From Oscillospiraceae bacterium (GTDB taxonomy: Bacteria > Bacillota > Clostridia > Oscillospirales > Ruminococcaceae), in assembly GCA_017472735.1 (NCBI GenBank), contig JAFUOD010000012.1:1-64000 (forward strand): a DNA stretch of 64,000 nucleotides, read 5' to 3'. A program made the translations under genes and the position numbers. The notes beneath the pieces are model-generated. The model saw only the letters and a program-made list of their open reading frames with translations. It was not told the DNA's origin and did no database searches. Below, piece after piece: positions 28,588 to 48,625 of the stretch (position 1 is its first letter; the number at the start of each line of letters is the position of its first letter).

Positions 28588-31434
28588 TTAATCTTCACCA
28601 AGTTTAAGAGCCTTGTTAATGTTGATCTGCTTAATGAGGTGTGCAATGACTGCAAAGCCAACAAGAAGCATAACAAGAACAATTATGTAAAGCTTGATGT
28701 AGTCGCCTCTTTCGGATACTACTACAAAAGGAGGAACCTGGTCGGTTACATTGTAGAGCACCTGGAACAAAGGCACGAACAAATCGGAAGCTATGCCGCC
28801 GATGATGATCGAAAGGAAGATAGATACGCCGGAAACAAGAACCTGTTCATAAACGATCATCGAAATGATCTCGCCAAACGACATACCCATAGCTCTTAAA
28901 ATACCGAACTGTAATGTTCTTCCCTTAATCGAAAGGATCCAGTAAATCAAGAAACCGATGAAGCACATTGCCATGATGATGATAAAGCCCAAGGTAAGCG
29001 CACCGTTAACACCCTGCAAAACAGCATCGGTTTTAGACGAGGTTACCATCTGAGATGAAACATCAAGTCTGGTTGCGGTAATGTCAGCTGCAACAACCGA
29101 GTCATAAAGGTCAGAGATCTTGGCATCGTCCTTAAGCGACATCCAAACCTGGTAAGGCTCGGTAATTGTCATAACATTAATGTAATCATAGTTAAGAATT
29201 ACAAAGTCCTTATAATCGCCTGCCGAGTTTCTTTCATAAGGGTTAAGGCTGGGCCAATAATCAACAACTGCAACAACGGTTGCTTCAAACCAATCGTTCT
29301 TGCTCCACTTAATGCTTATTCTGTCACCAAGGTTAACGCCGTATTTCTCCTGATAAGAGCTGGAGATAATTGCGCCGTCCTGACATTCGCTTAAGGCATT
29401 AATGTAGTGGTTAATGTGTACAGGCAAGAGGTTATCTCTGAACCAGCAAACATCAGCAAACTGATGAGCGATAATACCCATTACCTGACAGTCTGTCTGT
29501 GTCTTGTCGTTAAATCTTAGCTGAACAGTGTCGCGTTTGAATACAGGCGTAGCAACGTCAACACCTGCAAGTGTCTCATATCTTTCAAATACAGGCTCAG
29601 TATACTGAGTAACGCTTGTTTCGCCGCCGTCTTCTTCCGAATAGATCTTAACTCTGGTGGTCTTCCAAGCTTCTTCTAATACCACGTCTGCACCAAGGTT
29701 ATATTTGATTCTTTCCTCGGTATTGCGGTTAATAGCTCGTGCTGTGTTAGCCGAGAAGATGCCAAGTGCAACGGTAAGAATAAGGAAGATCATAATGAAC
29801 TTCTCTCTGCCCGAGGAAGAACGGCCGATGTTGTTGAGCGAAATGTAAGCAGCGGGCGACCAATGTTTTCTTCCGATAAAGTAGACCAAACGGATGAAGT
29901 AAGGATAAAGTCTTACGCAAACCAAGCCTGCGCCCAAAATGAATACGGTGGAAACCGCAAACATCAGCGGGTTCATTGTCGAGGCAACTTCGCTTATGCC
30001 TTGCTCAATAAGCTTCTGTTCACGGCGATTGTGGAACCAAAGCCATACAACAGGTAGAATAAGGCAAGCAAAATCGAGATACATCTTCTGCCAGAAGGGC
30101 TTTTCAAAGCTCTTTGCTTTTTTCTGCTTATGTGCAACAATAGAGATTCTCGACGCAGGAATGATGGGAACTAAAGTGGTAACAAAGAATACTGCAACCG
30201 CAACAATTGCAAACAAGAAAGCAGCAACAGAAAGCTTTGCCTGAAGTGCAGGACGGTTAACAAATTCCAAGAAGCCGTTTGATACGCCTAAGATGTTACA
30301 AAGTCCCAAACCTACAAACGGTCCGACAAGTGCCGAAATCGCGCCCAAAATAAGGGTTTCATAAGCGTAAATTCTTAAAATCTGCCACGAGGAAGCGCCG
30401 CGGCTCTTAAGCATTGCAATTTCGTTCTTCTCAGATTCTATATTGAGCTGAGATACCATGTAAAGGTAGAAGATAAGCATTAAGCACACGGGAATATCAA
30501 GCATTAAAAGGATATATTCCAACGACGCTGCCTTATCGGCATAAGCCTCTAAAACGCCCTTTGCGGGAACATCGAAGTTAACGTTTTCTTCGTCATATGC
30601 TTCTTCGTGCAATGCAAACATGTTCTGAACATGACCGATGATGTTCATATCCATGTTGTGATAGTCGATTATGTAACGACATTCAACCGATGTGATGTTT
30701 ACAATACCGGTGTAAATAAGACCTTCGGCAGCAGAAACGCCAAGCTCTTTGTTTTCGTTACCCAAAAGGGTATCAAAATCGGTAAAGAAGGTGTTGTCAT
30801 AGTTCTTCATACCCTCCGACCAGTAGGTGTCTGTCTCGTCAGAAAGTGTAAAGGTACCAACGACCTCAAGCTTAACGGTGTCACCGGGGGTAACAATGTT
30901 TGTTACCTCATAGATCTGACCCATTGTGATCTGTGCAGTCTGCAAAGCCATGGGGGTACAAATAACTTCATAAACGCCGTCATCACGTCTGCCGGGTTCA
31001 TACATTCTGCCCTCAAGCATGGTAATGTGTCCGTCCATCTCTGTCATGGCACCCAGCTTAAGCATCGAGGGGTTTTCCGACTCGACATTGGTAACATAAA
31101 GGTACGAGTCGTAGGTATAGCATTTATAGTTTAAGAACGGCACCAAAAGCTGGTTAAAACGGTTTGCCGAATTAGCGTAAACGTTGTTAACCGTTGCACG
31201 CTGATTTTTGGCAGAAGTGCCGCTCACGATGGTTTTTGTAACCGCATATACGCCGGGATATTCGTTGTTCTCCTCCTGATATGCCTGCATATCCTTAATC
31301 AGCATTCTCTGCAAGGAAGCATGCATATAAATCGGAATTGTACTTGTCATGGCAGTAGCCATGATAAATCCGATGAGAAGGCAGATTACCATCCACTTTG
31401 TATTGCGCATTTTTCTGAACAATAAAGTGAGCAT
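28588..31434 (-). CDS. Large FtsX/MacB-type ABC permease (two FtsX modules)
   Basis: 948 residues from ATG 31434 behind TAGGAGG. TM1 (about 14-36) is followed by a large extracellular domain (about 37-300), a first group of TMs (about 305-470), TM near 530-555, a second extracellular domain (about 560-790), and a final TM group (about 800-940) with ILRAMGMSFGEI, an FtsX cytoplasmic coupling segment. FtsX/MacB proteins do not move substrate through the membrane. They transmit ATPase motion to outside partners, here probably the MacA-like lipoprotein encoded just upstream. No ATPase gene adjoins it. The LolD-type ATPases at 46981-48625, at the head of the same strand block, are the best candidates. 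Confidence 0.85.
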   Translation of the reverse strand: MLTLLFRKMRNTKWMVICLLIGFIMATAMTSTIPIYMHASLQRMLIKDMQAYQEENNEYPGVYAVTKTIVSGTSAKNQRATVNNVYANSANRFNQLLVPFLNYKCYTYDSYLYVTNVESENPSMLKLGAMTEMDGHITMLEGRMYEPGRRDDGVYEVICTPMALQTAQITMGQIYEVTNIVTPGDTVKLEVVGTFTLSDETDTYWSEGMKNYDNTFFTDFDTLLGNENKELGVSAAEGLIYTGIVNITSVECRYIIDYHNMDMNIIGHVQNMFALHEEAYDEENVNFDVPAKGVLEAYADKAASLEYILLMLDIPVCLMLIFYLYMVSQLNIESEKNEIAMLKSRGASSWQILRIYAYETLILGAISALVGPFVGLGLCNILGVSNGFLEFVNRPALQAKLSVAAFLFAIVAVAVFFVTTLVPIIPASRISIVAHKQKKAKSFEKPFWQKMYLDFACLILPVVWLWFHNRREQKLIEQGISEVASTMNPLMFAVSTVFILGAGLVCVRLYPYFIRLVYFIGRKHWSPAAYISLNNIGRSSSGREKFIMIFLILTVALGIFSANTARAINRNTEERIKYNLGADVVLEEAWKTTRVKIYSEEDGGETSVTQYTEPVFERYETLAGVDVATPVFKRDTVQLRFNDKTQTDCQVMGIIAHQFADVCWFRDNLLPVHINHYINALSECQDGAIISSSYQEKYGVNLGDRISIKWSKNDWFEATVVAVVDYWPSLNPYERNSAGDYKDFVILNYDYINVMTITEPYQVWMSLKDDAKISDLYDSVVAADITATRLDVSSQMVTSSKTDAVLQGVNGALTLGFIIIMAMCFIGFLIYWILSIKGRTLQFGILRAMGMSFGEIISMIVYEQVLVSGVSIFLSIIIGGIASDLFVPLFQVLYNVTDQVPPFVVVSERGDYIKLYIIVLVMLLVGFAVIAHLIKQININKALKLGED

Positions 31435-31472
31435 TTTCTTTCCTCCTAATAATTATGAAAGCTTACGAAATC

Positions 31473-32519
31473 TTATCTGATGATGATTTCGTCGCCCACT
31501 TCAAGACCGGAAGTGATTTCAACAAGCGAGCCGCTCTGCAAACCGATCGCTACGTTTCTTTGTACCTTCTGGTTGTTTTCAAATACATAAACACACTTAA
31601 CGTTGTTTACAGTCTTGATAAGGTTAGCCGAAATAACAATAACATTCTCACGCTTATCCAAAATCAAAAGGGTATCGGCAATGTTGCCGACAGCCGAAGA
31701 TTCGGGAATCATATCATTAAACTTAACAATAATTCTGTCCGATGTTTCCTGTGTTACATATTCACCGTTTTCATCGACCTTAGCTGCGCCGGTGGTTTCG
31801 TCCCAAAGTCTCGAAATTGTACTTTCTACAATTGTGCCGTCGAAATATTCGCCCTCGTAACGGATGGTGATGGGGCGGCCAACCATGAATTCGCTTACGT
31901 TATCATCCGGGTTGATTTTAATGTAAAGGTCTGTAATGTCAATAACGGTTGCAACAACCTCACCTGCGTTGACCCAGTCGCCGGGAGAAAGTGTCATAAC
32001 CTGAGAAACAGTACCTGCAACATCAGTATAAAGCTTTGCAGCGTCCTTTTCGGCATAAAGCTTGTCAAGCTCGTTCTGCAAAAGCTGAATATCCAAAAGC
32101 TCCTTAGCCTTAACGGTTTCGCTTTCCTTCTTTTCAATTGCGATCTGATATTCAAGCTCTTCACGTTGCATCTCAAGCTCCATAAGCGAGATCTCAATGT
32201 CAAGCTCATAAGTTTCAAATTCAGCAATAAGGTCTCCGACCTCAACAACGTCGCCGGCAGATACATAAACGCCCTTGATGTTACCGCCGCGGTCGGTAAA
32301 TCTTGCCTTATATTCTGTGCCCGAGGCGATGGTGCCTGCTGTCAATACCTGCTTGGTAATATCTTTAAGTTCAGCAGTGGTGGTTGTGTAGGATACTTCG
32401 CTTGCCTTGACTACGGGAGCTTCTAAAACCTCTTCCTCTTCGGGGAGGAAATAGCAGCCGCTCATTACAAACATTGTAAGAGCCATTAAAACAAGCAAAA
32501 TGGATTTTGTTAGTTTCAT
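31473..32519 (-). CDS. MacA/HlyD-like efflux adaptor lipoprotein
   Basis: 348 residues from ATG 32519. The signal peptide ends in the lipobox VMSGC (Cys near residue 22), so it is lipid-anchored. A barrel-sandwich half (about 60-100) is followed by a short coiled coil (about 105-160, Glu/Leu-rich), the second lipoyl half with LSPGDWVNAGEVVATV, and beta-barrel/membrane-proximal domains with a C-terminal LEVGDEIIIR. This is the MacA fold. It is 38 bp upstream of the permease gene. Its promoter region holds an 11-bp inverted repeat. Confidence 0.87.
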   Translation of the reverse strand: MKLTKSILLVLMALTMFVMSGCYFLPEEEEVLEAPVVKASEVSYTTTTAELKDITKQVLTAGTIASGTEYKARFTDRGGNIKGVYVSAGDVVEVGDLIAEFETYELDIEISLMELEMQREELEYQIAIEKKESETVKAKELLDIQLLQNELDKLYAEKDAAKLYTDVAGTVSQVMTLSPGDWVNAGEVVATVIDITDLYIKINPDDNVSEFMVGRPITIRYEGEYFDGTIVESTISRLWDETTGAAKVDENGEYVTQETSDRIIVKFNDMIPESSAVGNIADTLLILDKRENVIVISANLIKTVNNVKCVYVFENNQKVQRNVAIGLQSGSLVEITSGLEVGDEIIIR

Positions 32520-32631
32520 ATGCGTTCATCCTTTCGATTTGGCTAAAATTCGCCTTATAGTCATTCTACCAAAAAATCAACAATTACACAATAGGTTTTT
32601 ACAATCTAATTAACAAAACCAAGTAATATTT

Positions 32632-32660: not shown

Positions 32661-32666
32661 TAAATT

Positions 32667-32702: not shown

Positions 32703-34316
32703 TTATTCAAAGTTTACCTCGTCACGAGTTATGACCGCCGAGCTGTTATAAAAGACCACCCACTCAGCTTCGGTCATATCCCCTCCAAAACCACCCTGAG
32801 CATCAACAACATATTCGCCCGACCAAACGCAGGCATAACCAAAATATGCTCTGTCCGTAACAATGTTAACAGGCGAGGGCAACACGTTGCATTCGCTTAT
32901 AACAACGGGTTTTGTTAAAGAAATCTCGGCAAAGGTGTGCAAAAGATTCACGCGTGACGAAGAATTCCATGCCTGCTCGCTGAAGTCGTAAATATCAAGC
33001 GAGATAATATCGCACCATTCATCGCCCACATACCAGTCCTTGTCCTGTCCGTTCCAGACAAAAATAAGGTTGTCTAAATGCCAATAATCGGTCAGGCGCA
33101 TATAAATCAGTCTGTAAAGCCAAAGGTAGGCATCTTTATCCTCGCCCCACCAATACCAGCCGCCGCTTGCCTCGGGCAGAGGTCTGAACAATACGGGTAT
33201 ATCAAGCTCTTTAAGCCTTAAAAGCTCGGCAGCAATTTCGTCAATATCCGCCAGCAACGACATTGCTTCATCGCTTACTCCGCCGCTTTCATAAAGCTCG
33301 TTAAGCTTCGATTCGCTCATTCGGGCAATATCATGTGCGTTCACAGCCTTTTTAACGTCGAAGTCAGACTTCTCGGCATAAACCGAGCCGCCCTTTACCC
33401 AATGCCACACATAGCCAACAATACCGCCGTTTTCGGCATAATCAATTGCATATTCAACATCGCCGCTGTCGGCACCTGTGGCATAATCCATCAGCTCGCC
33501 AAATCTAATTGCAGGGTATTTGCCTGTATAGCGCAAAACCTCGTATATCTCGTTGTTTGTGCCCTGCGAGCACTGCTGTGCGCTTAAGGTCGCCTTGCCG
33601 TAGCTTTGGCAGAGGTATTCATAAAGCGCTCTTGCCGAATCGGATGCTTTTGAGTTTGAAAGCACACCGCCTGCGTTATAAGCAAAGTCGATAACCGACT
33701 TTGAATCCTCTAAAATAACATAGTCGAAATCTGCTTCGGCAGTCAGCTTTCCAAAGGTAATATAATGCTCGCCTTCTGACAGATAAATGTTTTCAAACTT
33801 GACTGCTTCAAAGCTTCCGCTTCCCGAAAGACTGAAACTGCCAAATGCGCTTCCGTCCACATACATAATTCCTGTCAAAAGTTTATCCGAGGCGGCACAT
33901 ACCGTTATGTTATAATGCTGGTCCGAAACCGCCGCAACCGTTATTCTAAGCTCGCTGTCGGGCAAAGATACGCCCGAAACATAACCCTCGCCGATGTACC
34001 CTTCTCTAAAAGCGGCCGCCTGAGCATAGCCCGAAACCTCGCCTTCCTCAGCCTGATACATTTCAAGGCAATACTGCACGTTAAAATCAATCTCCTCAAG
34101 CTCGGATTGCCCATAAGTCGGCAAGTCAAAATCAGGCTCGGTTATCAGGGGGGCGCCTGCCTCGGGCAGAGGGGTATCGGTCACATCCTCTGTTACAATC
34201 TGCTCATAAGGTATGTTATGATCGCTCGCCAAGGTTCCGTTTGCAGGCGACGATTGCGCCCCGCAGCCAACCAGAAGCACAAGTGCCAGCATAACGCAAA
34301 TTATCCGCTTTATCAT
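32703..34316 (-). CDS. GH26 endo-beta-mannanase-like lipoprotein
   Basis: 537 residues. ATG 34316 is used (AAAGGAGC ten bases upstream, inside the end of bioY). The lipobox LVGCG (Cys near 18) makes it an anchored lipoprotein. A first beta-sandwich domain (about 60-205, YQAEEGEVSG...YVILED) resembles a CBM35/CBM6-type carbohydrate-binding module. The catalytic domain (about 220-530) has VGYVWHWVKGG and FRPLPEASGGWYWWG, which holds the GH26 acid/base Glu, and a VVISECNV strand with the probable nucleophile Glu. The usual RPLHE His is Pro here, a departure to note. It probably cleaves mannan outside the cell. Confidence 0.85.
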   Translation of the reverse strand: MIKRIICVMLALVLLVGCGAQSSPANGTLASDHNIPYEQIVTEDVTDTPLPEAGAPLITEPDFDLPTYGQSELEEIDFNVQYCLEMYQAEEGEVSGYAQAAAFREGYIGEGYVSGVSLPDSELRITVAAVSDQHYNITVCAASDKLLTGIMYVDGSAFGSFSLSGSGSFEAVKFENIYLSEGEHYITFGKLTAEADFDYVILEDSKSVIDFAYNAGGVLSNSKASDSARALYEYLCQSYGKATLSAQQCSQGTNNEIYEVLRYTGKYPAIRFGELMDYATGADSGDVEYAIDYAENGGIVGYVWHWVKGGSVYAEKSDFDVKKAVNAHDIARMSESKLNELYESGGVSDEAMSLLADIDEIAAELLRLKELDIPVLFRPLPEASGGWYWWGEDKDAYLWLYRLIYMRLTDYWHLDNLIFVWNGQDKDWYVGDEWCDIISLDIYDFSEQAWNSSSRVNLLHTFAEISLTKPVVISECNVLPSPVNIVTDRAYFGYACVWSGEYVVDAQGGFGGDMTEAEWVVFYNSSAVITRDEVNFE

Positions 34317-34322
34317 AATCAA

Positions 34323-34829
34323 TCATGCTCCTTTCAGCGCGTGCTTAAGCTTTGGTACCAAAATGCACGCAAGAACTATTTTTATAAAGTCAACAACGAT
34401 AAACGGCAAACAGCAAACAACTATCGAGATTAAAAAGCTCGCTTTTGTTACGATCATATACCATGCCGTTCCGACAAGATATATAGCTAAAGTGGCAATA
34501 CAAATTGTCGAAAACAATCCTATTTTGTCTTTTAGTATAGTTATTATCGCTGTTGCAAGCAAATAACCTATAATAAATCCGCCGGTAGGCCCCAAAAGCA
34601 CCTGCAAGCCTCCTGCAAAGCCGGAAAAAACGGGCACGCCAAGCGCGCCTAACATTATATAAACAGATACCGCGGCAATTGCTTTTTTAATGTCGGTCAG
34701 CCCTGCTATAAAATATATTCCAAAGCTTGCAAGAGTTATCGGCACAGCACCAACGGGTATTACCCACGGCGAAATAACGCACATTGCCGCTGCATAAAGC
34801 GCTGTAAGAGTTAAATTCTTATATTTCAT
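34323..34829 (-). CDS. bioY: BioY-type biotin transporter substrate-binding subunit
   Basis: 168 residues from ATG 34829, the normal BioY size. Six hydrophobic segments are visible. The BioY signature runs through VGAVPITLASFGIYFIAG and LGALGVPVFSGFAGGLQVLLGPTGGFIIGY, which line the biotin pocket. BioY is the S-component of an ECF importer; the EcfA/EcfT module must lie elsewhere. The GH26 ribosome binding site is inside the end of bioY, so the two are co-translated, an unusual pairing. The promoter is minus-strand TATAAT at about 34899-34904, followed by a near-palindrome. Confidence 0.9.
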   Translation of the reverse strand: MKYKNLTLTALYAAAMCVISPWVIPVGAVPITLASFGIYFIAGLTDIKKAIAAVSVYIMLGALGVPVFSGFAGGLQVLLGPTGGFIIGYLLATAIITILKDKIGLFSTICIATLAIYLVGTAWYMIVTKASFLISIVVCCLPFIVVDFIKIVLACILVPKLKHALKGA

Positions 34830-34904: not shown

Positions 34905-34946
34905 TATTTTTTTCGGTTTGGCTACCCTTACCCTTGTCAAAAAGAA

Positions 34947-34979
34947 AACTGCTGTTAAGCCAAGCCTAACAGCAGTTTA
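34947..34979 (-). terminator. Terminator at the end of the transport gene block
   Basis: Stem aaactgctgtta/taacagcagttt with a loop of about 9 nt, followed on the minus strand by ttctttttg. It lies 11 bp past the stop at 34991. Confidence 0.85.
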
Positions 34980-34990: not shown

Positions 34991-36172
34991 TTATCCTACC
35001 AAACCGGATCTTGCCAAGCCTTCGGTGAAGTGCTTTTGCAAGAATACGTACATTACAAGAATAGGTGCGATTGTAAGCAAACAGCCCGATTCGAGCCATA
35101 CGATCTTCTTTCTTGTACCAACCTGAGCACCGTTAAAGAGCGTCTGGTCCAAAGTCGCCGAGAGCTTCTGGAGCGCAAGAGCAACTGTATGGTTAGAAAT
35201 GAAGAAGGTCGAGCTTACATAGTAGTCGTTCCAATACCATACTATCGAGAAGAGGAATACAGTAAGGAATGATGAGGAAGCGTTAGGTACCATTACCTTC
35301 AAGAAGGTCTTGATAGGTCCGCAACCGTCGAGGTATGCAGCATCCTCGAGTTCCTTGGGGAGACCCTTGAAGAACTGTCTGAAGATGAACACGAAGAGAC
35401 CGGACTTGATACCGTTAACAAAGATTGCCGGAGCATACATTACGATCGGGTTGTCGATAAGCGATACATAGTGTCCACCGGATGCGTTAGTCAGAATCTT
35501 TATACCCATAAAGGTGGTAGCACCGGCAGACGCCAAAACATCTACCAATCCGAAGCAGTCGAAGAATGCCCACTGGAGGTACAAAGGAATAACGGTGATC
35601 TGAGGGGGAACGATGATCTGCATGATAACAATGCCGAACATGAGCGCCTTGCCCTTGAAATCGAATCTTGCGAAGCCGTAACCTGTAATAGCGCAAACGC
35701 CTACCGACAAGAGCGAGCAAACAAGGTTAAGCAAAATTGTGTTTAAAAGCGTGGGACCAAAGTCCATTGTTTCCCATGTGTCAATAATGTTCGAAAGAGT
35801 TAACGACTTAGGAAGCCAGATTACCGAGGGGTCGGTCATCTGTACCGAAGGACGGAACGCTGTCGAAACCATGTAAATAAGGGGATACAGAATTACGAAG
35901 CAAAGTCCGAACAAGATAAGGAATCTGAATATGGGCCAAACCTTATTGAAAATTGCTTTTCTGCGGAGGTAACCCAAGTGCTCGCTTGTAAGCTGACGGT
36001 CGTCAAGTGTGCCGGCCTTCTTAGCAGCCTTGTAAGCAGCTCTTTTTGCTTTAAGATGAGCAGCGCGTTCTTTTTCGAACTCTCTTTCAATCTTCGACTG
36101 ACTGATTTCCTTCTGCTTTTTAACCTTAGGTGCTTTAGGAGCCTTAGGAGCTTTTTCTTTAGCAGTTGCCAT
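34991..36172 (-). CDS. Carbohydrate ABC transporter permease, MalG type, with long basic N-terminus
   Basis: 393 residues from ATG 36172 behind AAAGGAGGG. About 90 cytoplasmic residues, rich in Lys, Ala and Pro (KAPKAPKAPK, then a charged helix), precede six TMs. The coupling helix is visible as LEDAAYLDGCGPIKTFLKVMVP, the EAA-loop of MalG-type importers. Normal MalG-like proteins are about 280-300 residues, so the basic extension is an addition. It follows its MalF-type partner by 13 bp and ends the block. No matching ATPase is encoded next to it. Confidence 0.9.
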   Translation of the reverse strand: MATAKEKAPKAPKAPKVKKQKEISQSKIEREFEKERAAHLKAKRAAYKAAKKAGTLDDRQLTSEHLGYLRRKAIFNKVWPIFRFLILFGLCFVILYPLIYMVSTAFRPSVQMTDPSVIWLPKSLTLSNIIDTWETMDFGPTLLNTILLNLVCSLLSVGVCAITGYGFARFDFKGKALMFGIVIMQIIVPPQITVIPLYLQWAFFDCFGLVDVLASAGATTFMGIKILTNASGGHYVSLIDNPIVMYAPAIFVNGIKSGLFVFIFRQFFKGLPKELEDAAYLDGCGPIKTFLKVMVPNASSSFLTVFLFSIVWYWNDYYVSSTFFISNHTVALALQKLSATLDQTLFNGAQVGTRKKIVWLESGCLLTIAPILVMYVFLQKHFTEGLARSGLVG

Positions 36173-36185
36173 TCATATCCCTCCT

Positions 36186-37181
36186 TTACACTTCGTAATA
36201 AACGAACTTGTTTACGATCGGGAATACTATGCAGAGCGCCAAAATAACGATCAAGAAGTATGCCCAAGCCATAGCGGCCGAGTAACCGTGATTCCATGCA
36301 GATGCCTCCTGCAAAACGAGTGTCATAACTGCGTTGTTGGGGGCAACGAAGGAGTCAACGATTGTGTAAACTAAGTTAACAACGATCATAGGGCTGATGT
36401 AAGGAAGAGTGATCTTCCAGAAGAATTCCCAAGCGGTAGCACCTTCGATAGAAGCTGCTTCCTTAGCCGAAACAGGGATGCCCTGCAAAGCAGCCAAGAA
36501 GATGATGATCTGAATACCTGTACTCCATACAAGGTTAAAGATATCACTTGTCATCAGCGAGATAATTTCCGTTACCTGGTCACTGATGTTGTATACGCCC
36601 AAGAAGTTCAAAAGTGCACCTGCCATGTCAGTTTCAAACATTGTCGAGAACTGGTCTGCACCGCCGGAGTAACCAGAGGTGTCCATGTCACCGTTGATGA
36701 TGGTGATTACAGGGCCGGTCGCAATGATTACAGGGAGGAAGAATACCGCTCTGGCAAAGGTTCTGCCCTTAAACTTCTGATTAAGGATAACGGCAATAAA
36801 GATTGCAAAGATGATGATAAGCGGTGTTCTCCAAAGAGTGTCTTTAAGCACTGCTAAAAGTGCTTCTGTGTAATCGGTGTCTTTTCTGAAGGCATCAATA
36901 TAGTTCTGAATGCCAGCAAACTGGGTCTTCATTTCGCCCAGTGTAACCTCTGTTACGTTTAACGAGTACCAAAGCGATACTAAAAGAGGTCTTAAGAAGA
37001 AGTAGATAGTACCAAGGATCCAAATGGAGAGGAATCCATAGCCGTAAAGTGCTTTACGTCTTTCATAAGGAATTCTCAGACCCTTGGCTTTTTTCTCCTT
37101 AGGTGCTTTTTCAACCTTTGCAGCCTTAGGCGCCTTGGGTGCCTTAACTTCCTCAGCAGTTTTTACTGCGGTTTCAGCCAT
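36186..37181 (-). CDS. Carbohydrate ABC transporter permease, MalF type, with basic N-terminus
   Basis: 331 residues from ATG 37181 behind AAGGAGG. The first 45 residues are Lys/Ala/Pro-rich (KAPKAPKAAK), similar in style to the partner's extension. Six TMs follow from about residue 50. The EAA-loop is VSAKEAASIEGATAWEFFWKITLP. It is 2 bp downstream of the DUF5696-like gene, so translation is tightly linked to that protein. It forms the second permease pair of the block. Confidence 0.9.
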   Translation of the reverse strand: MAETAVKTAEEVKAPKAPKAAKVEKAPKEKKAKGLRIPYERRKALYGYGFLSIWILGTIYFFLRPLLVSLWYSLNVTEVTLGEMKTQFAGIQNYIDAFRKDTDYTEALLAVLKDTLWRTPLIIIFAIFIAVILNQKFKGRTFARAVFFLPVIIATGPVITIINGDMDTSGYSGGADQFSTMFETDMAGALLNFLGVYNISDQVTEIISLMTSDIFNLVWSTGIQIIIFLAALQGIPVSAKEAASIEGATAWEFFWKITLPYISPMIVVNLVYTIVDSFVAPNNAVMTLVLQEASAWNHGYSAAMAWAYFLIVILALCIVFPIVNKFVYYEV

Positions 37182-37183
37182 GA

Positions 37184-39691: not shown

Positions 39692-39713
39692 CTTATACTC
39701 ACTTTCTGCTCGC

Positions 39714-40349: not shown

Positions 40350-42007
40350 TATTTGCTTCCTCCCTTCTTATTAATATTGCTAATAATTTTTTTAACCAAA
40401 TCAACAATTTTGTCAGCAACCCACTTAATGCCTCTTTTAATGAGATTGTTAGGGATAATGCCGCGCTTCTGAAGCTGCTTAACAACAAACCAAGCAATTA
40501 CCAAAAGAACGAGAACAATAACGATAAGTGTAAAGTTATCTCTCAAGAGGTCCTGACGTTCAGCCTCGAACGCTCTGTCATAGTCTTCGGCATTGTAAGC
40601 AAGCTTGAAGTACTTCATAGCCTCGTCATAGTTATCCTGGTTTAAAAGTGCTCTGCCGATAGCAAGATATGCCATGTTGTAGTTACCGTCGCGCTTAAGA
40701 ACTTCGCGCCAAAGATCTAACGAATCCTCGTACAAGCCTTCGTTAAACATATCAACAGCTTCATGAACCAATCCGCCGAAGAGCGTTTCTTCATAAACTG
40801 TTACGTCGTTGTTTCTGCCGTCGAGAACGTAGATATTCTCGCCATAACATTCAACAGCATTAGGGTTGTCAAAACCGCCGTTCTGTGCTTCCTGGTCACA
40901 TCCGAAGATGAACAGCAAGCTACATTCCTTATCATATTGGAACACACGTCCTGTTGTATAGTCCAAAATGTTGATGATGCCGTTTTCGCCGACAGCAACG
41001 TCAGTCAAACGGGTTGCGGTTGTTGCGCCCGAATAAGTGATGGACTGCTGGTCACCGAATGAAATATCAGCAGCATTTGTGGTGGTTTCCAAAATGTTAT
41101 AGCCGGCAGGGTTAAGCTTTTTAACTGCGTCGGTCGAAACATCGGCAACTTCGGTTACTGTGTAAATAAAGCCTTCATGGTCAACGTCGAAGTTTGCATA
41201 TTCAACAGGGGTAATGTTGATCATACCTGCGATCTGTTCTTCAGAGGCGAACTTTCTCCAAAGCTTGTTTCTGATTACTTCAGCAGTAACTTCAACACGG
41301 TTTGCACCGTAATAACCCATGAATGAGCCGCTGGGTGCGAACATGATAGCACCCTTGTTGACCGCAGGGCAGATAACATAAACGTTCTTAGCTGCGTCAA
41401 CCAAAACCTTTGTGCAGTAGAAGGATACCGAGTCATAAAGCTCTGTTTCGGGTCTTACATACTCAGTAATGATCTCACAGTCGAATCCGCACTTGATAAT
41501 ACGCTGATTATCTCTGTCAGCAATGTACATAATGTCGTCTTCATCAACAAAGATGCCGTAGGGGCTCTTAAGGGTTGTTGCAGGAATAGACTCAATTACA
41601 TTGCCTTCTGCGTCCTTAATTTCTTCTACTACCTTACCGCCTGTAAAGTTCTTATAGCAGGCAATAAGGTTAAAGTTAATGTCAGTTCTTAAAATTCTGT
41701 TGTTACCCGTGTCAACAATAAAGAATTCATTGTTGGGCGAGAGGAAGAAATCCTTGGCATCTGTAAGAGTTGCGGGTTCGTCCTCGCTGATAAACAACGG
41801 GCTGTTGGGGTCGGAGAGCTGGTCAAGGCCCATGTCAGCACCGGTTATTGTGTCTTTAACAATGTAACCGTTCTGAGAAGGCAGTGCAACACTCCATGCG
41901 TTGTAGCTATAGGATGTATACGGGTCCTCAGCATTCACAACGGTTGTAAACGTGCAAACCGTCATGATGAGAGCTACCAGCATACAAAGAGTCTTTTTAA
42001 AGTTCAT
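40349..42007 (-). CDS. Secreted/membrane NHL beta-propeller and TPR protein
   Basis: 552 residues from ATG 42007 (a GTG nine bases upstream is equally spaced from a site). A signal peptide (about 5-27) is followed by six-bladed NHL repeats (about 60-400), for example FIVDTGNNRILRTD, LKSPYGIFVDEDDIMYIADRDNQRI and VLDGRNNDVTVYE. Two TPR motifs follow (about 415-485, with LYEDSLDLWREVLKRD and YDEAMKYFKLAYN), then a TM (about 497-517) and a basic cytoplasmic tail. This is a single-pass protein with the propeller outside the cell, suited to binding glycans or partner proteins. It is 41 bp after the first MalG-type permease. Confidence 0.8.
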   Translation of the reverse strand: MNFKKTLCMLVALIMTVCTFTTVVNAEDPYTSYSYNAWSVALPSQNGYIVKDTITGADMGLDQLSDPNSPLFISEDEPATLTDAKDFFLSPNNEFFIVDTGNNRILRTDINFNLIACYKNFTGGKVVEEIKDAEGNVIESIPATTLKSPYGIFVDEDDIMYIADRDNQRIIKCGFDCEIITEYVRPETELYDSVSFYCTKVLVDAAKNVYVICPAVNKGAIMFAPSGSFMGYYGANRVEVTAEVIRNKLWRKFASEEQIAGMINITPVEYANFDVDHEGFIYTVTEVADVSTDAVKKLNPAGYNILETTTNAADISFGDQQSITYSGATTATRLTDVAVGENGIINILDYTTGRVFQYDKECSLLFIFGCDQEAQNGGFDNPNAVECYGENIYVLDGRNNDVTVYEETLFGGLVHEAVDMFNEGLYEDSLDLWREVLKRDGNYNMAYLAIGRALLNQDNYDEAMKYFKLAYNAEDYDRAFEAERQDLLRDNFTLIVIVLVLLVIAWFVVKQLQKRGIIPNNLIKRGIKWVADKIVDLVKKIISNINKKGGSK

Positions 42008-42057
42008 ACTCGTCACCGCTTTTCACCTTTCATTATAATTAAACATAGTCGTTAATC

Positions 42058-42957
42058 TTAGTCCTTCATACCCGAGTTAGCCATGGTTTCCATAACGTTA
42101 CTCTGTGCAATAAGGAAGATTACAAGCGGAGGAATCATAAGTACTACAGCCGAAGCGTAGATAATGCCCTGACGAGCGATACCTGCTGCCGCGATCTGAG
42201 ACATGATTGTAGGAAGGGTCTTAAGGTCTTCTTCATATACCAAAGCGCCGCCCTGAACGTTCCAAGCTGCCTGGAATACAAAGATGATAAGAGTTGCGAT
42301 TGCAGGCTTCTGGTTAGGAATTACTACCTGCCAGCAGGTTCTGAATGCGCCGGCACCGTCAACCTTTGCGGCATCAATTATCGAGTCGTTGATAGTTGAC
42401 ATGTTCTGTCGCATCAGGTACAGACCCATCGAGGTCGCAACGTTTGGTAAAATAAGTGCCCAATATGTATTGATCATACCCATCTTAGCCATTACTACGA
42501 ACTGCATGATCCATGTTGCTGTAGAGGTGAACAAGAGGGCAGTTACGATCAACTGGTTTAAGAAATTGTAACCGGGGAAACGGCACTTGGACAAGCAGTA
42601 AGCACAGCAGCAGCATACAAATACGTGCAAAACAGTGATTACGATTGTGATAAATACCGAGTTGAATACGTATCTCGAGAAAGGTACCCACAAGTTGCCG
42701 GCAACCTTAAAGAGGTTCGAGAAGTTCTCACCGGTAGGAGCTACTACGTAAAGCTTTGGAGGGAATACGAAAAGCTCACTGATCGGCTTGAAGGACTGAA
42801 TGATTGAATAGTAAAGCGGGAAAATCATAAAGATTCCCAAGAGAGCGAGGAGAATGAAAATACAAATATCTCCCGCAAGTGAACCGTTAATGTGCTTGCC
42901 CTTGGACTTTTTAACATGAACTTTTTCAATGTTAACGGGCTTTTTTCTTCTTGCCAT
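42058..42957 (-). CDS. Carbohydrate ABC transporter permease, MalG type (first pair)
   Basis: 299 residues from ATG 42957 behind AAAGGAGGG. Six TMs are present, and the EAA-loop is DSIIDAAKVDGAGAFRTCWQVVIP. The short basic N-terminus (KKSKGKH) is much smaller than in the second MalG. It is 17 bp after the MalF partner. It lies within the long minus-strand unit led by the solute-binding protein. Confidence 0.92.
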   Translation of the reverse strand: MARRKKPVNIEKVHVKKSKGKHINGSLAGDICIFILLALLGIFMIFPLYYSIIQSFKPISELFVFPPKLYVVAPTGENFSNLFKVAGNLWVPFSRYVFNSVFITIVITVLHVFVCCCCAYCLSKCRFPGYNFLNQLIVTALLFTSTATWIMQFVVMAKMGMINTYWALILPNVATSMGLYLMRQNMSTINDSIIDAAKVDGAGAFRTCWQVVIPNQKPAIATLIIFVFQAAWNVQGGALVYEEDLKTLPTIMSQIAAAGIARQGIIYASAVVLMIPPLVIFLIAQSNVMETMANSGMKD

Positions 42958-42974
42958 TATGTATTTTCCCTCCT

Positions 42975-43928
42975 TTAGTCAGTATATTTACTCAAGACGT
43001 TGCGGATAAGCTTGTTGAAGATAAGCATTACAACGAACAATACCATACAGATCGCCGAAGCGTAACCCATCTCGTAACGGATAGAACCGTAGTCCTGAGC
43101 GTGGTTCATAACAGTGTGTACTGCATAGTTGGTAGAAGGAAGACCGCAAAGCGAAGCACCTACGCCACCAACAGTAAATGCGCCTGAAATAGCCAAAACG
43201 GCTGCAAACAAGAGCGAGGGGCCCATTGCAGGGATCGTGATCGTAAAGAGCTCCTGGAAGCGGTTCTGAATACCTTCGATAGCGCCTGCCTCATAAAGCG
43301 AAGCATCAATGCCCTGGAAGCCTGCACGAAGTGCCAAGAATCCTGCACCCATCGAAGTCCAGAGCTGAACGATGATAACGACCGTCATCATATAAGTCGT
43401 GTCTGTCAGCCACTGCGCCGCCTGGGTTAAAATGCCCAAATCCAACAATACCGAGTTAAGGTAACCGTAAGAGTCGCCCGAGAATACGAGCTGCCAAATT
43501 ACGAATGCCGAAGGGGTCATGGAAGGAGCGTAGAATACGAATGTGAAGAATACCTTAAAGAAAGGATTCATTTCGTTAATAAGCCATGCCAAAAGGAAGC
43601 TTAAAACGTAAGAGAACGGGCCCGTAAAGATTGCAAAGATAAGAGTGTTTTTTATTGCAATCAAGAAGATATCGTCGTTTACAAACAAAGAATAGAAGTT
43701 CTGAAGTCCGATAAACTTGGGGAACTGTACCAGGTTAAAGCTTGTAAGACCAAGCGGGAATGACATTACAACCGGTACAACTGTAAAAATTGTGAAGAGT
43801 GCGAAGAAAGGAAGCATCATCCAGTAGCATGCTTGGTTTCTTTTTACAAGGTGCCATGTATATGCCCATTTGCTTTGAGTATTTATCGGCTTGGGCTTCT
43901 TTTCGGTTTCAGTTTTTACTTTAGCCAT
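42975..43928 (-). CDS. Carbohydrate ABC transporter permease, MalF type (first pair)
   Basis: 317 residues. ATG 43928 is used (AAAGGAGG seven bases upstream) rather than the longer frame to 43982, which would overlap the solute-binding gene. Six TMs are present, and the EAA-loop is IDASLYEAGAIEGIQNRFQELFTITIP. It forms the first importer pair with the next gene and lies 19 bp after the solute-binding gene. Confidence 0.92.
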   Translation of the reverse strand: MAKVKTETEKKPKPINTQSKWAYTWHLVKRNQACYWMMLPFFALFTIFTVVPVVMSFPLGLTSFNLVQFPKFIGLQNFYSLFVNDDIFLIAIKNTLIFAIFTGPFSYVLSFLLAWLINEMNPFFKVFFTFVFYAPSMTPSAFVIWQLVFSGDSYGYLNSVLLDLGILTQAAQWLTDTTYMMTVVIIVQLWTSMGAGFLALRAGFQGIDASLYEAGAIEGIQNRFQELFTITIPAMGPSLLFAAVLAISGAFTVGGVGASLCGLPSTNYAVHTVMNHAQDYGSIRYEMGYASAICMVLFVVMLIFNKLIRNVLSKYTD

Positions 43929-43947
43929 TATATACTTCCTCCTTTCC

Positions 43948-46917
43948 TTATTCCAGTCCGAGTGCTTCGCGGGTAATGCCAAGCTCCTCGTACTTTCTCA
44001 TAATTTCGTCGTTGATATCTCTGTTGTACCAAGCAAGCGAGTCTCTGGGGTTCTTGTTAAGGTTAACAGTGTCTCTGAATGCGTTGGTAATGTTACGTCC
44101 TACGATATAGGTCGAGGGAATGATGTCGATTTCAACGGTGTTGTTCATCTGAGTAAGAATCAAATCAAGCTCATTTTGGCTCCAAGCAAGCTGCTTCAAA
44201 GCTTCCTGGTTTGCGGTATCAAATCTACCGAGAGGGCCTAAGAGAGCTTCAATAGATCTGCCGTATTCAGCCTGAATTTCACTTGAAGTGAACCACTTAC
44301 AAAGCTCCCAAGCATCCTTTCTCTGCTCTTCATTAAGCTTCGAGAAGATGATGCAGCCTGCAGAAGCGGAAGTTGTCGAACGGTTAATGTTTCCGTTTGC
44401 ATCAGGTGTGCCGGGAATTAAATCGAGTTCCCACAAGCCTCTGATTTCGGGTGCTGCCATGTAAAGCTGGTTATAGAAGGTATAACCTGTAATGATGATG
44501 GGATATTCACCGGTTCTGAAACGTGTGAACTGGTCGAACGACTGCTGGAAGCTGTAAGTTGTGTAGAACTTAGTCCACATTTCAAATGCTTCAACAGCAT
44601 CCTGTTCAAGGAATCTTGTTTCGGTAAGGGTGTCGTTATAATAGGTCATTCCACGCTGTACCATGAATGTACCGAATACGTCGAAGCCGAAACCAACGCC
44701 CATGTAGCTTCTTTGAAGTGTAGGAAGCATTTCGATGAGTTCATCCCATGTCTGAGGTCCCTGGTCGAAGCCGAAGGATTCCAAAACGTCGGTTCTTGTA
44801 AACATCATTGAGAAGCCCTGAGAAATAGGCAAGCCGTAAACGCCCTTGTTTTTACCTTCGTTATAGGTGTAAAGGGTCATAATGTTGTCGGCAAATCTTT
44901 GGGTAACTTCTTCATAATCCTCAAACTGAGAAATATCTACCAAGCAATCACGTGCTGCAAGCTGAATCGGGAAGTCGCCGCCGATGAAGAGCGCAACGTC
45001 AGGACCCTTGCCTGCAAGTGTTGCTTCCAAAATACCGCCCTGTACAAGGTTAATGGAAGCTTCGATTCCTGTTTCGGGAACGAAGTAGGAGTCAACGAGT
45101 TCCTTAACGATCTGAGCCTGGTCACGACCCAAGGATACCCAAACGTTCAAGGAGTCCTTGCTTGTATCGGAAAGGATGTTGTAGTCAGCAAAGAAGGAGC
45201 CGATGAAGGACTTTGTGCTGAACCATAAGGACTTAAGGAAGTTTTCCTTAACACCGCTGAAGTCCTTATCAGCAGAGGTGAGCTCGATCATATCGATCTC
45301 AAGGTACTGGCTTCTGTAGTCAGTCATCCACTGAGCCAAGGAAGTGATATTATCCTTGATCTGTCCCAAGTTGCTGGGAATATCGTCAGGGCGCTTGATG
45401 CATCTGTCCAAAAGCTCAGCCATGGTCTCCAACGAAACAGCTTCTGTACCTTCGGTACCTGCCAACTCTTCGATTTCGCCCTTAATGCTTCTTAACAATT
45501 CAGAGTACTTTTCAAAGTCGGGAAGAATGGAAGGAATCTGCTTGTGGATTACATAAGTGTTGTATTCGTCAGGCTGAAGACCTGTGATCTGCAAGATCTG
45601 ACGGTAATAGCTGTTAAGATAATAAACAATGTCGTCAAGACGGCGCATGATGTCACCGATCTCGCCGGGAACAGCTTCTAAAGTAAGGCTGTGGTCGCCT
45701 GCTTCAAGCCAGAAGTAAAGGGTGTTGCCGTCTGCATCTGTGGGAGTAACACATTCCCAAGTGGTCGAATAGTAGAACTTAACCTTATCAGCGTCTTCAC
45801 AAGGAACCTCACCGTCAATGTAAAGTCTTCTGTTCGAGTAAAGACCTCTCATCAAGTCCTGCTTAGCTCTGATACCGATCTTTACCCAACCTGCTTCTTC
45901 CATGGTAAAGTTCCATGTAACTGACTGACCTGCGGTCTTCCAGTTGTCGGCACCAATGGTGTTGTAAATCATGTTTACAGCATCAGAGGGAGAAGTGAGG
46001 TAGGTAGATCTGTTGTATGTAGCATAAAGGGTTACGTCCGACTTGAAGTCAGCCTTTTCGCCCTCTAACTTAACATAAATGTCCTTCGAAGCGCCTGCAA
46101 CGCTTGCATCAGTAGTTACATTTTCAGCGTCAGCAGTAGCAGCAACGGGCTTTTCGTTATAAAGCTTAATGTAAGATAAAGCAAATCTTGCCTTCTCGGA
46201 CTTTATGGTAATAACATGGTCGCCCTTTGTGAAGTAGAATCTCAGCGGGTCATTGAACAAACCGTCTGTATCCTTTAAAGGAGAGGTCTGCCATGTTAAG
46301 AATTCTACCAAGGTAGGTCTTATCTGGTTTCCGTGAGAGTCCATCTTGAATTCTCTCGAGCCGTCTTCGCTGTAAACAAAGTTGCCCTCTTCATCAACCA
46401 TGTAGCCCTTTTCGTTGTCTACCCAAACCTTGCTCAAAAGAACACGTTCAGCAGTAGCATAAGGAGCTTCACCGTCAATAAGAACAGAGATCTCAATATC
46501 GTTTGCTGCACTTGCCAAAGCATAGTACATCATCTCGATATTATAAATACCTTCTTCTGTAACGGTTACGGGGAAGTCGATCGAACCCGACGCTGAGGGC
46601 CAAACCAAAGCCTCAACACCGTCAATTGTGTCAACATAAGCTTCGGTCTCCGCACTGGCGTTTGTATATACAGAATAAGGAATAACTACTTCTGTATCCG
46701 GGCGTACATCGTCAATGTGCTTGTCGTAATATGTACTGTAGGTACGTGCTCTGTTTGCGTCGTCAAGGCCCTGAGCAGAGGTTTCCTTAACCGCAGCGTC
46801 CTGCTCTTCGGTCACACCTGTGTCAACCTCATCAGCATAGACAACTGCCAATGTAGGCACGATCATCACTAAAGCTATAACAAAAGAGATTATGCGCCTA
46901 AACATCTTGTCTTTCAC
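43948..46917 (-). CDS. Very large extracellular solute-binding protein with N-terminal carbohydrate-binding-like domains
   Basis: 989 residues from GTG 46917 (GGTGG seven bases upstream). A signal peptide (about 5-27) ends at VVYADE and has no lipobox Cys, unusual for a Gram-positive binding protein. Two beta-sandwich regions (about 70-260 and 270-420), with EEGIYNIEMMYY and EAGDHSLTLEA, look like carbohydrate-binding modules. A helical region (about 430-560) follows, then a type 1 solute-binding fold (about 600-985) with LEATLAGKGPDVALFIGGDFP and FTRTDVLESFGFDQGPQTWDELIEML. Typical binding proteins are about 420-550 residues. It heads the sugar-import gene set. Confidence 0.85.
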   Translation of the reverse strand: MKDKMFRRIISFVIALVMIVPTLAVVYADEVDTGVTEEQDAAVKETSAQGLDDANRARTYSTYYDKHIDDVRPDTEVVIPYSVYTNASAETEAYVDTIDGVEALVWPSASGSIDFPVTVTEEGIYNIEMMYYALASAANDIEISVLIDGEAPYATAERVLLSKVWVDNEKGYMVDEEGNFVYSEDGSREFKMDSHGNQIRPTLVEFLTWQTSPLKDTDGLFNDPLRFYFTKGDHVITIKSEKARFALSYIKLYNEKPVAATADAENVTTDASVAGASKDIYVKLEGEKADFKSDVTLYATYNRSTYLTSPSDAVNMIYNTIGADNWKTAGQSVTWNFTMEEAGWVKIGIRAKQDLMRGLYSNRRLYIDGEVPCEDADKVKFYYSTTWECVTPTDADGNTLYFWLEAGDHSLTLEAVPGEIGDIMRRLDDIVYYLNSYYRQILQITGLQPDEYNTYVIHKQIPSILPDFEKYSELLRSIKGEIEELAGTEGTEAVSLETMAELLDRCIKRPDDIPSNLGQIKDNITSLAQWMTDYRSQYLEIDMIELTSADKDFSGVKENFLKSLWFSTKSFIGSFFADYNILSDTSKDSLNVWVSLGRDQAQIVKELVDSYFVPETGIEASINLVQGGILEATLAGKGPDVALFIGGDFPIQLAARDCLVDISQFEDYEEVTQRFADNIMTLYTYNEGKNKGVYGLPISQGFSMMFTRTDVLESFGFDQGPQTWDELIEMLPTLQRSYMGVGFGFDVFGTFMVQRGMTYYNDTLTETRFLEQDAVEAFEMWTKFYTTYSFQQSFDQFTRFRTGEYPIIITGYTFYNQLYMAAPEIRGLWELDLIPGTPDANGNINRSTTSASAGCIIFSKLNEEQRKDAWELCKWFTSSEIQAEYGRSIEALLGPLGRFDTANQEALKQLAWSQNELDLILTQMNNTVEIDIIPSTYIVGRNITNAFRDTVNLNKNPRDSLAWYNRDINDEIMRKYEELGITREALGLE

Positions 46918-46980
46918 TGTGAATCCACCTTTCATAGTATTTGGATACATATATTATCCCATTTGGGTAAATAAAGAGTT

Positions 46981-47955
46981 TTACTGAGCTTTGTGGATGT
47001 AGATCCTCTGCTCGTCAAGGTCAAGATCTGCCTTAACCTTTTCGCCGCCCTTAATGTTAAGAGCCTCTAAGTAGTCCTTGGGAAGCTGCAGCCTGCCGGT
47101 ACGGTCTAAAACTACAAGTTCTTCTGAAACATAACTCTCTTCAGCAGTCTCATCAGCTTCGTTAGAATTAAGTCCTGCGGACTCTCTTAAAATTTCGGCA
47201 TGAGATTTTTTAATGATTTCACTCGAGGTTCTGCCGTCTCGGATAGAAACCACACGGTCTATTTTTTTAGCCAGTCGAAGGTCATGCGTTACGATTACGA
47301 TTGTAATGCCCTTCTTTTGGTTAAGCTCTTTAAATACGTTAAGAATCTGGTCAGAGGTCTTCGTGTCGACCGAGCCGGTAGGTTCGTCCGCCAAAAGAAG
47401 CATCGGGTCGTTTGCCAAGGCAATTGCAATAGCTACACGCTGCTGCTCACCGCCCGACATCTGATCAAGTCTTGAATTAACTCTGTGCGAAAGTCCAACC
47501 TGATCCAAAAGGTCAAGCGCTTTCTGACGTCTTTCTTTTTTGCCCTGCAAAAGCATCGGCAATTCAACATTTTGCACAGCAGTTAAATAAGGAACAAGGT
47601 TACGCGCGTTGTTCTGCCAAACAAAGCCGACAACGTTGCGCTTGTAAACCATATAGTCTTCTTCGGTGAATTTTAAAAGGTTTCTGCCGCAGATAGTCAA
47701 GCTGCCTGCCGAGGGCTTATCGAGACCGCCGAGCATATTAAGCAAGGTCGATTTACCTGAACCGGAAGTACCTACGATTGCGACAAGCTCGCCTTTTTTG
47801 ATCTGCAGGTCTAAGCCCTGAAGAGCAACTACTTCGATCTGGTCAGTCTTATAGATCTTAACTAAGTTTTCACATTCAATCGCATATTCCGATTCATCAG
47901 CACCGGGAACGAGGATCTCGGCCAAGTGTTCGGCTAATTTTTTCTTCTTACTCAA
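46981..47955 (-). CDS. LolD/MacB-type ABC ATPase with C-terminal AbrB-like domain
   Basis: 324 residues from TTG 47955, which overlaps the previous gene by 8 nt; no ATG is nearby. Walker A GTSGSGKST (about 56-64), Q-loop FVWQNN, signature MSGGEQQRVA, Walker B LLLADEPTGS and H-loop VTHD are all intact. After residue 245 comes a linker, and then residues about 275-324 read LDRTGRLQLPKDYLEALNI and end in a DEQRIYIHKA strand, matching the swapped-hairpin AbrB/SpoVT DNA-binding fold (cf. ...GRVVIPIELRRTLGI...). An ATPase-AbrB fusion is unusual. It may form a heterodimer with the preceding ATPase. Confidence 0.85.
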   Translation of the reverse strand: MSKKKKLAEHLAEILVPGADESEYAIECENLVKIYKTDQIEVVALQGLDLQIKKGELVAIVGTSGSGKSTLLNMLGGLDKPSAGSLTICGRNLLKFTEEDYMVYKRNVVGFVWQNNARNLVPYLTAVQNVELPMLLQGKKERRQKALDLLDQVGLSHRVNSRLDQMSGGEQQRVAIAIALANDPMLLLADEPTGSVDTKTSDQILNVFKELNQKKGITIVIVTHDLRLAKKIDRVVSIRDGRTSSEIIKKSHAEILRESAGLNSNEADETAEESYVSEELVVLDRTGRLQLPKDYLEALNIKGGEKVKADLDLDEQRIYIHKAQ

Positions 47956-48625
47956 CTATCTCACCGTCCTCTAATGTATATACAGCATCGGCAATTTCGA
48001 GCAAGCTCGGGTCATGCGTTGTCATAACAATTGTCATGTGTTCTTCTAAAACAAGCTTTTTAAAGAGTTCAACAATGTGGTGCGAAGTAGCGCTGTCAAG
48101 CTCTGCGGTAGGTTCATCGGCAAAGATGATCCTGGGCTCGTGTGCCAAAGCTCTCGCAATTGCAACACGCTGCTGCTCACCACCCGAAAGCTCACCGGGG
48201 CGGTGATGCATTCTCTTCGCAAGTCCCACATCCTCTAAGCACTTTTTAACTCTTTCCTCTCTCTTATCAAAGGGGAACTTAGAAAGCCTTAAGCCGAAGT
48301 CCACGTTTTCATAGGCAGTCATCGAGGACATTAAAGCAACAGACTGGAAAACAAACGCCATTTTATAACGGCGAATTTCGTCTCGCTTCACATCCGAAAG
48401 CTTCGTAATGTCCACTCCGTCAAACAAAACTTCACCCTTTGTGGGTCTGTCCAAAGCTCCCAAAAGATTAAGTAATGTTGTTTTACCCGAGCCTGAACGA
48501 CCCTTTAAAATGGTCAGCTTACCCTCGGCAACAGTGATATTAATGTCTTTAAGGGCGTGAACCACGCTGCCATCGCCGATATTAAAATCTCGGCAAAGAC
48601 CGTTGGTTGCAAGCAACGTTGCCAT
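47948..48625 (-). CDS. LolD/MacB-type ABC ATPase
   Basis: 225 residues from ATG 48625 behind CAGGAGG. Walker A GRSGSGKTT (about 40-48), Q-loop FVFQS, signature LSGGEQQRVA, Walker B IIFADEPTAE and H-loop TTHD are present. The family (LolD, MacB, FtsE-like) works with FtsX-type permeases, not MalFG. It is first in the 20-kb minus-strand block and translationally coupled to the second ATPase. The only FtsX-type permease in the window is at 28588-31434. Confidence 0.92.
   Translation of the reverse strand: MATLLATNGLCRDFNIGDGSVVHALKDINITVAEGKLTILKGRSGSGKTTLLNLLGALDRPTKGEVLFDGVDITKLSDVKRDEIRRYKMAFVFQSVALMSSMTAYENVDFGLRLSKFPFDKREERVKKCLEDVGLAKRMHHRPGELSGGEQQRVAIARALAHEPRIIFADEPTAELDSATSHHIVELFKKLVLEEHMTIVMTTHDPSLLEIADAVYTLEDGEIVE

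Follow-up and report, generated by a model that had tools for sequence, protein, structure and literature searches.

The described systems closest to the locus analysed here are MacAB-type (type VII) ATP-binding cassette (ABC) exporters, CUT1-type sugar importers and the glycoside hydrolases around GH129. MacB is described as working outside the membrane and carrying no substrate across it (PMC5985334), and the MacAB-like pumps of Gram-positive bacteria as having a hexameric adaptor (PMC5768738). DagB combines a beta-sandwich with a TIM barrel and, at its C-terminus, an Ig-like domain; of the two catalytic residues of NagBb it has only one (Asp486), and it has been proposed to form a family apart from GH129 (PMC5698469). 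Here we analysed a 64,000-nt stretch of an Oscillospiraceae genome (contig JAFUOD010000012.1; hereafter the window, meaning the whole stretch), in which fourteen minus-strand open reading frames (ORFs) occupy positions 28588..48625. We consider it quite probable that two separable ABC machines, an importer and an exporter, are co-encoded here, with the exporter's ATPase genes placed inside the importer's cassette.

The ORF list, together with Pfam and NCBIfam naming, agreed with an initial annotation of this DNA on the positions and identities of all fourteen genes. That annotation had also described a 989-residue solute-binding protein; the protein is indeed large, with 1000 residues counted from the first ATG, and 989 fits a start at residue 12. 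The fourteen genes comprise two modules. Module A (34991-46950) consists of SBP1, MalF1, MalG1, an NHL/TPR protein, YIP1, DUF5696, MalF2 and MalG2. Module B consists of the LolD-type ATPases NBD1 and NBD2, a MacA-like lipoprotein and a duplicated FtsX permease. G- and L-numbers below label genomes and loci of relatives; all genes are on the minus strand.

The two ATPase genes lie at the head of the block and overlap by 8 bp: NBD1 (47948..48625; 225 residues, ABC motifs intact) and NBD2 (46981..47955; 324 residues, with an AbrB/MazE-like C-terminal tail). LolD was the best NCBIfam match for both, at 233 and 206 bits, which is under the model cut-off of 308. The FtsX permease (28588..31434; 948 residues) matched PF02687 in two stretches (2.7e-20), and a crude hydropathy scan gave nine hydrophobic segments and two long gaps. 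The MacA-like adaptor (31473..32519) matched HlyD_3 above the cut-off (1.2e-7) and RND_mfp below it (2.7e-16). With an FtsX/MacB-type permease that has an extracellular domain, a LolD/MacB-type ATPase and a MacA-like adaptor, module B has the parts of a MacAB-type, or type VII, exporter.

We then used co-occurrence to examine the claim of the initial annotation that the ATPases belong with the FtsX permease. Of the 60 family genomes sampled, 28 matched DUF5696 in full (at least 199 bits) and 32 did not. An FtsX ortholog was present in 14 of them (at least 670 bits, the next match being 33 when the pieces of the split G049 gene are left out), and an NBD2 ortholog (at least 400 bits, or the G071 fragment) was present in the same 14; neither occurred alone. 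The G071 copy of NBD2 is cut by a contig end and scored 266 bits, the best paralog elsewhere 250. MacA directly preceded FtsX in 14/14, although in G099 it is cut by a contig end. A search of the remaining 40 family genomes for FtsX, at E 1e-20, located it in G007, G070, G093 and G097; NBD genes follow it in three of these, and the two contigs of G070 are too short to tell. These results uphold the claim.

Stand-alone exporters form compact operons, in the order MacA-FtsX-NBD1-NBD2 (G066, G097, G093) or NBD1-MacA-FtsX-NBD2 (G165, G139); in G030, NBD2 comes after FtsX, with NBD1 visible as an overlapping frame. The AbrB/MazE-like tail makes up the C-terminal 45 residues of NBD2 (PF04014 at 1.6e-7, over the cut-off, in G040 and 5e-4, below it, in the window). 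It was found in 13 of 14 aligned NBD2 orthologs, G099 being without it. As the orthologs with the tail include those of stand-alone exporters, it appears to be an exporter trait. A literature search for AbrB fused to an ABC transporter returned nothing seemingly related. The model of the cassette YIP1 found no match beside stand-alone exporters, although a divergent Yip1 protein could escape it.

The exporter halves differ in how they are placed relative to module A. The NBD pair heads the cassette in 13/13 genomes with both modules, namely 12 of the 100 family genomes and G398, the genome of locus L033 (in G071 only the NBD2 end is on the contig). MacA-FtsX directly follows the cassette in three of the 13 (the window, G044 and G065) and is not beside it in the other ten: it lies about 45 kb away in G398, and on another contig in nine genomes, whose draft assemblies do not give the true distance. 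Of the family genomes that match DUF5696 in full, 12 of 28 had FtsX, against 6 of the 72 others (Fisher p 1.7e-4, uncorrected for kinship or completeness). The exporter is therefore associated with the DUF5696 set, and the lack of co-occurrence that the initial annotation had named as fatal to its proposal was not what we found. The modules are nevertheless separable: DUF5696 occurs without FtsX in 16/28 genomes, and FtsX without full DUF5696 in the 6/72. In two of these six, G030 and G097, DUF5696 gave matches that were weak and partial.

In a tree of 43 DUF5696 rows, a starred 20-row clade contained all 13 rows with the NBD pair together with a starred 7-row clade without it, and the latter is sister to 10 rows with the pair. 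Neither an FtsX nor an NBD2 ortholog was detected in the seven genomes of the pair-less clade by the 60-genome searches. The simplest reading of the tree would be one capture of the ATPase pair and one joint loss of both exporter halves. As module A has persisted in this sub-lineage, where neither half of B is left, it does not need these ATPases.

The perfect sigma-A promoter that the initial annotation placed at the head of the block is present at 48815..48843 on the minus strand, before NBD1 (TTGACA-17-TATAAT with TG, 12/12 match, 17-base spacer). The window contains two exact matches of this kind, and shuffled sequences gave an expectation of 0.02. A 12/12 promoter lies upstream of NBD1 in 12/12 loci with the pair, the window included (G071 has no NBD1 on its contig). 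Upstream of SBP1 it was found in 6/10 family loci without the pair and in 0/13 with it. The NBD pair thus sits between promoter and SBP1. The frequency was 0/11 upstream of MacA in other loci and 14/474 upstream of other ORFs. The second perfect promoter of the window (50831-50803) goes with the gene at 48969-50708, which encodes a 579-residue exported protein without a Pfam match and, by eye, with a wall-anchor-like tail at its end.

A terminator-like hairpin with 15 pairs and a T-rich tail lies 3' of MalG2 (34946..34978, minus strand), and a further hairpin (32695-32664) lies upstream of MacA. The fourteen-gene block is therefore probably more than one transcript, although terminator-like hairpins in the region were at chance level (19 versus 18.0 expected). 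The genes between MalG2 and MacA are BioY (34323..34829) and a GH26 protein with, by eye, a lipoprotein-like N-terminus (32703..34322). The order BioY-GH26-MacA-FtsX, which stands downstream of the window cassette, also occurs in G398 at the distant site, and for this reason we dropped the idea that BioY is a chance insertion. BioY is missing from G044; GH26 adjoins MacA in the window, G044 and G398 and, inverted, in G035. A two-component system (response regulator and histidine kinase, 24922-27049) lies close to the FtsX gene of the window, and in G044, of the same genus, a relative of this histidine kinase gene adjoins FtsX.

The leader of the cassette also contains a candidate site, the near-palindrome TTGTGCAnnnTGCACAA with two mismatches (48665..48681). 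A second copy, again with two mismatches, lies at 50992-51008, upstream of the next gene upstream of the cassette. In the window alone this is not significant (2 sites, 0.53 expected, with 9/100 shuffles reaching 2). Most relatives that have the NBD pair also carry a palindrome of this type in the leader. In a search of six genomes, the sole sites of G044 and G010 with at most one mismatch were at the cassette locus. Most sites of G040, G074 and G063 were away from it, and the one such site in the window's genome lies elsewhere, so the palindrome was rejected as a dedicated, specific operator of the cassette. The off-locus sites of G040, G074 and G063 precede a ribosomal-protein operon, rpoB-like and adhE-like genes, and others (names by eye). 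The AbrB-like tail was likewise rejected as the reader of the palindrome, as G099 has palindrome sites and no tail.

For module A, we counted 38 full DUF5696 matches in 28/100 family genomes; with weak partial matches included, 35/100 were over the DUF5696 cut-off and 37 matched at E 0.001. Among control genomes a weak match occurred in 2/14 and one over the cut-off in 0/14, and a phylum-wide draw gave 26/299 genomes above the cut-off. Neighbourhoods were viewed for 22 of the 38 full family matches and the named relative L033 (23 loci), later also for G071 and G015 and, among the 44 phylum matches listed with scores of at least 480 bits, for 18. The order SBP1-MalF1-MalG1-NHL-(YIP1)-DUF5696-MalF2-MalG2 was complete in 20/23 family loci, the other three being cut by contig ends, in both later loci, and in 13/18 phylum loci. 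In the family locus of G049, SBP1 is split over two frames; the 13 phylum loci include L102, in which a contig end cuts SBP1, and L095, in which MalG1 is interrupted. Four phylum loci (L089, L090, L098 and L100) are reduced to NHL-YIP1, DUF5696, MalF2 and MalG2, and L103 is rearranged. The initial annotation had supposed that DUF5696, YIP1 and such permeases recur together in other Bacillota. The neighbourhood survey found these genes together with the NHL gene, in a kept order and not scattered, both within the family and beyond it in the phylum.

Because other families of the phylum show the same order as the window's family, the cassette is likely a general glycan-uptake system. Open-literature searches on YIP1, NHL repeat and solute-binding combinations listed no paper that seemed to describe it, and neither DUF5696 nor PF18952 was mentioned in the open literature searched; the conserved eight-gene sugar-import cassette is thus apparently undescribed. 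Among 20 chosen neighbours of the cassette, the enzymes varied (GH26, GH10, GH31, GH35, arabinofuranosidase, apiosidase-like and PF10091), and we therefore name no sugar as substrate. In several relatives, GH26 is found close to MacA or to the cassette. Six distant loci have an additional, ordinary solute-binding protein, which follows MalG2 in L092, L093, L094 and L104 and precedes SBP1 in L087 and L096; this would fit an earlier state with one such protein per permease pair. The window has none. In L095 (6861-9720), MalG1 is in two pieces with a 442-residue ORF of the opposite strand between them, possibly an inserted mobile element.

Within the cassette, the NHL/TPR protein (40349..42016; a signal-like N-terminus and one C-terminal hydrophobic segment) and the YIP1 membrane protein (39714..40349) overlap by 1 bp. 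They occurred together in 42/42 rows, 31 times as separate neighbours and 11 times fused, with YIP1 at the NHL C-terminus. These natural fusions show that NHL and YIP1 are one unit. YIP1 stays with module A where module B is absent.

SBP1 (43948..46950) has SBP_bac_8 in its C-terminal half and a long N-terminal half with a weak CBM_35 match at 314-361, below the Pfam cut-off. A profile search related the C-terminal half to the Lin1841 structure 5ysb (E 1e-28), which we take to be a Listeria solute-binding protein serving a CUT1-type oligosaccharide importer. MalF1 (42975..43982) and MalG2 (34991..36172; UgpE/GlcU/MalG-like in NCBIfam) were recognized by Pfam. MalG1 (42058..42957) and MalF2 (36186..37181; UgpA-like in NCBIfam) were under the Pfam permease-domain cut-off and were named by position and relatives. 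The gap between DUF5696 and MalF2 is 2 bp, and that between MalF2 and MalG2 is 13 bp. A simple pattern for the EAA-like motif was found in 35/37 MalF1, 33/37 MalG1, 29/43 MalF2 and 41/43 MalG2 rows. All four are thus MalF/MalG-type with the EAA loop of CUT1 permeases, two of them below the Pfam cut-off. A MalK-type ATPase with OB and TOBE domains (56644..57786) is encoded inside the window, outside the cassette; its gene is single in the window's genome, where it gave the only OB_MalK match. Such an ATPase was found in 28/30 genomes, including 26/26 high-quality ones, and is the likely motor of module A, rather than the LolD-type pair.

The DUF5696 protein (37184..39691; Pfam 526 bits, signal-like N-terminus) is GH129-like by profile, which gives DUF5696 a first anchor. 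A 14-member profile matched the GH129-like structures 8rzg and 8rzk (1e-13), DagB 5opq (2e-13) and NagBb 5wzn (9e-8). In 43 rows, acidic columns were D291 (41/43), D317 (40/43), D636 (38/43) and D696 (36/43). D636 may match Asp486 of DagB; the profile alignments stop short of the barrel residues named in PMC5698469. The role of DUF5696 is possibly to bind and not to cut. The window copy has a tandem APAEGEE-like low-complexity stretch after its signal-like N-terminus; an acidic stretch of comparable length was seen in just one other of the 14 aligned rows, L033. The window's genome has further, weak DUF5696 matches, which were set aside because their frames look, by eye, like GH13-type branching enzymes.

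From gene content, conservation, co-occurrence, promoter position and the joint absence of both B halves in one clade, all observed directly, we infer the biochemical roles, the ATPase-FtsX contact, the shared transcript and the transport direction in the following model. Module A would be a conserved oligosaccharide-uptake cassette. At the cell surface, glycan chains would be held or trimmed by its exported SBP1 and exported GH129-like DUF5696, and its two CUT1 permease pairs would import the product, powered by a shared ATPase of the MalK type whose gene lies 8 kb upstream. As membrane proteins, NHL/TPR and YIP1 may together form an assembly or scaffold unit of A, by analogy with the Yip1 protein that modulates YknXYZ assembly. 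Module B would be a MacAB-type exporter doing ATP-driven work outside the membrane: its FtsX permease is duplicated within a single chain, each half would have its own ATPase, and a MacA-like adaptor completes the set. Because the NBD genes lie between the strong promoter and SBP1 in the window's lineage, making A would always bring with it the exporter's energy half. The link between A and B is real and lineage-specific, and is probably a matter of shared expression.

The initial annotation had proposed more, namely one compound envelope system. In one form of this idea, FtsX, MacA and the NBDs would deliver or release glycans mechanically at an SBP1/DUF5696 surface complex, with NHL-YIP1 as the bridge. 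The link between the modules that this supposes stands, and the NBD pair at the head of every both-module cassette, the MacA-FtsX genes adjoining it in three genomes, the family-wide association of FtsX with DUF5696 and GH26 beside MacA are all in its favour, as is a Yip1 protein that modulates a MacAB-like exporter in Bacillus. Against the single machine, each module occurs without the other, MacA-FtsX lies on another draft contig or about 45 kb away in ten of the 13 genomes, and YIP1 remains with A where B is missing. We therefore regard the compound machine as unlikely. Slightly more doubtful still is the uptake mechanism that would follow from it, in which the FtsX/NBD/MacA engine loads or releases oligosaccharides on SBP1/DUF5696, with NHL/TPR-YIP1 bridging to the two CUT1 pairs; if true, such mechanically driven uptake would couple sugar import to a type VII ABC engine in a new way. 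The LolD-type pair could instead be the dedicated motor of both MalF/MalG pairs, replacing MalK, as its place in an importer cassette and the match of two ATPases to two permease pairs might suggest. We rejected this as very improbable, since the cassette persists in the 7-row clade, which lacks the pair, the pair occurs only with FtsX (14/14 in the 60 genomes), MalK is present in every high-quality genome and LolD is the best NCBIfam match.

A further explanation is compatible with the two-module anatomy and disputes only that the coupling has a function: an old rearrangement placed the ATPase pair behind a strong promoter and was merely inherited. The distribution of the pair needs just two changes on the tree. 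Protein distances show about the same degree of correlation among FtsX, the NBDs, DUF5696 and SBP1 (r 0.83-0.90), which vertical descent alone would give, so the linkage could be plain inheritance. However, the split arrangement has been kept in 11 genera of the family sample and in G398, mostly with MacA-FtsX not adjacent, and both B halves are jointly missing from the 7-row clade. We hold this neutral explanation to be possible but somewhat doubtful, and continue to favour two separable machines whose expression is linked. Besides the correlated distances, several points weigh against our model. Its mechanism is inferred from gene content, and the neighbourhoods viewed cover 24/38 full family matches and 18/44 listed phylum matches. 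A perfect promoter lies upstream of SBP1 in just 1/13 phylum loci, and the promoter is therefore a family trait. The 43 aligned DUF5696 rows contain no conserved Glu column, so that DUF5696 may or may not be an enzyme, and AlphaFold on a two-row DUF5696 alignment (window and L033) gave no usable structure (mean pLDDT 35.9). The Bacillus Yip1 protein YknW modulates assembly of the MacAB-like exporter YknXYZ (PMC4887032); YIP1 could accordingly belong to B, yet here it stays with A where B is absent.

What is new here is an importer cassette that our literature searches did not find in print, together with a split exporter. In this locus the ATPase genes of one ABC machine lie under the promoter of another, an arrangement that can be put to the test. 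With the Gram-positive MacAB-like exporters Spr0693-0694-0695 and YknXYZ, module B shares a MacA-like adaptor, a separate LolD-type ATPase and an FtsX/MacB-type permease (PMC5768738, PMC4887032, PMC5985334). It differs in having two different ATPases, a single-chain duplicated permease and an AbrB-like tail on the second ATPase, and in that its ATPase genes are split off into a sugar cassette. YknWXYZ of Bacillus is a neighbourhood that likewise holds a MacA-like adaptor, an ATPase and an FtsX-type permease together with a Yip1-family protein, whereas here YIP1 goes with NHL and is present without the exporter. DUF5696 resembles GH129 and DagB, a 3,6-anhydro-D-galactosidase, in its profile matches to 8rzg, 5opq and 5wzn (E 1e-13 to 9e-8); unlike these it lacks a conserved Glu column and has no known activity. 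CUT1 importers of the MalFGK2 type share with module A the Lin1841-related half of SBP1, the MalF/MalG-type permeases and a MalK-type ATPase in the genome, whereas module A has two permease pairs and a 1000-residue solute-binding protein, and adds NHL/TPR, YIP1 and DUF5696.

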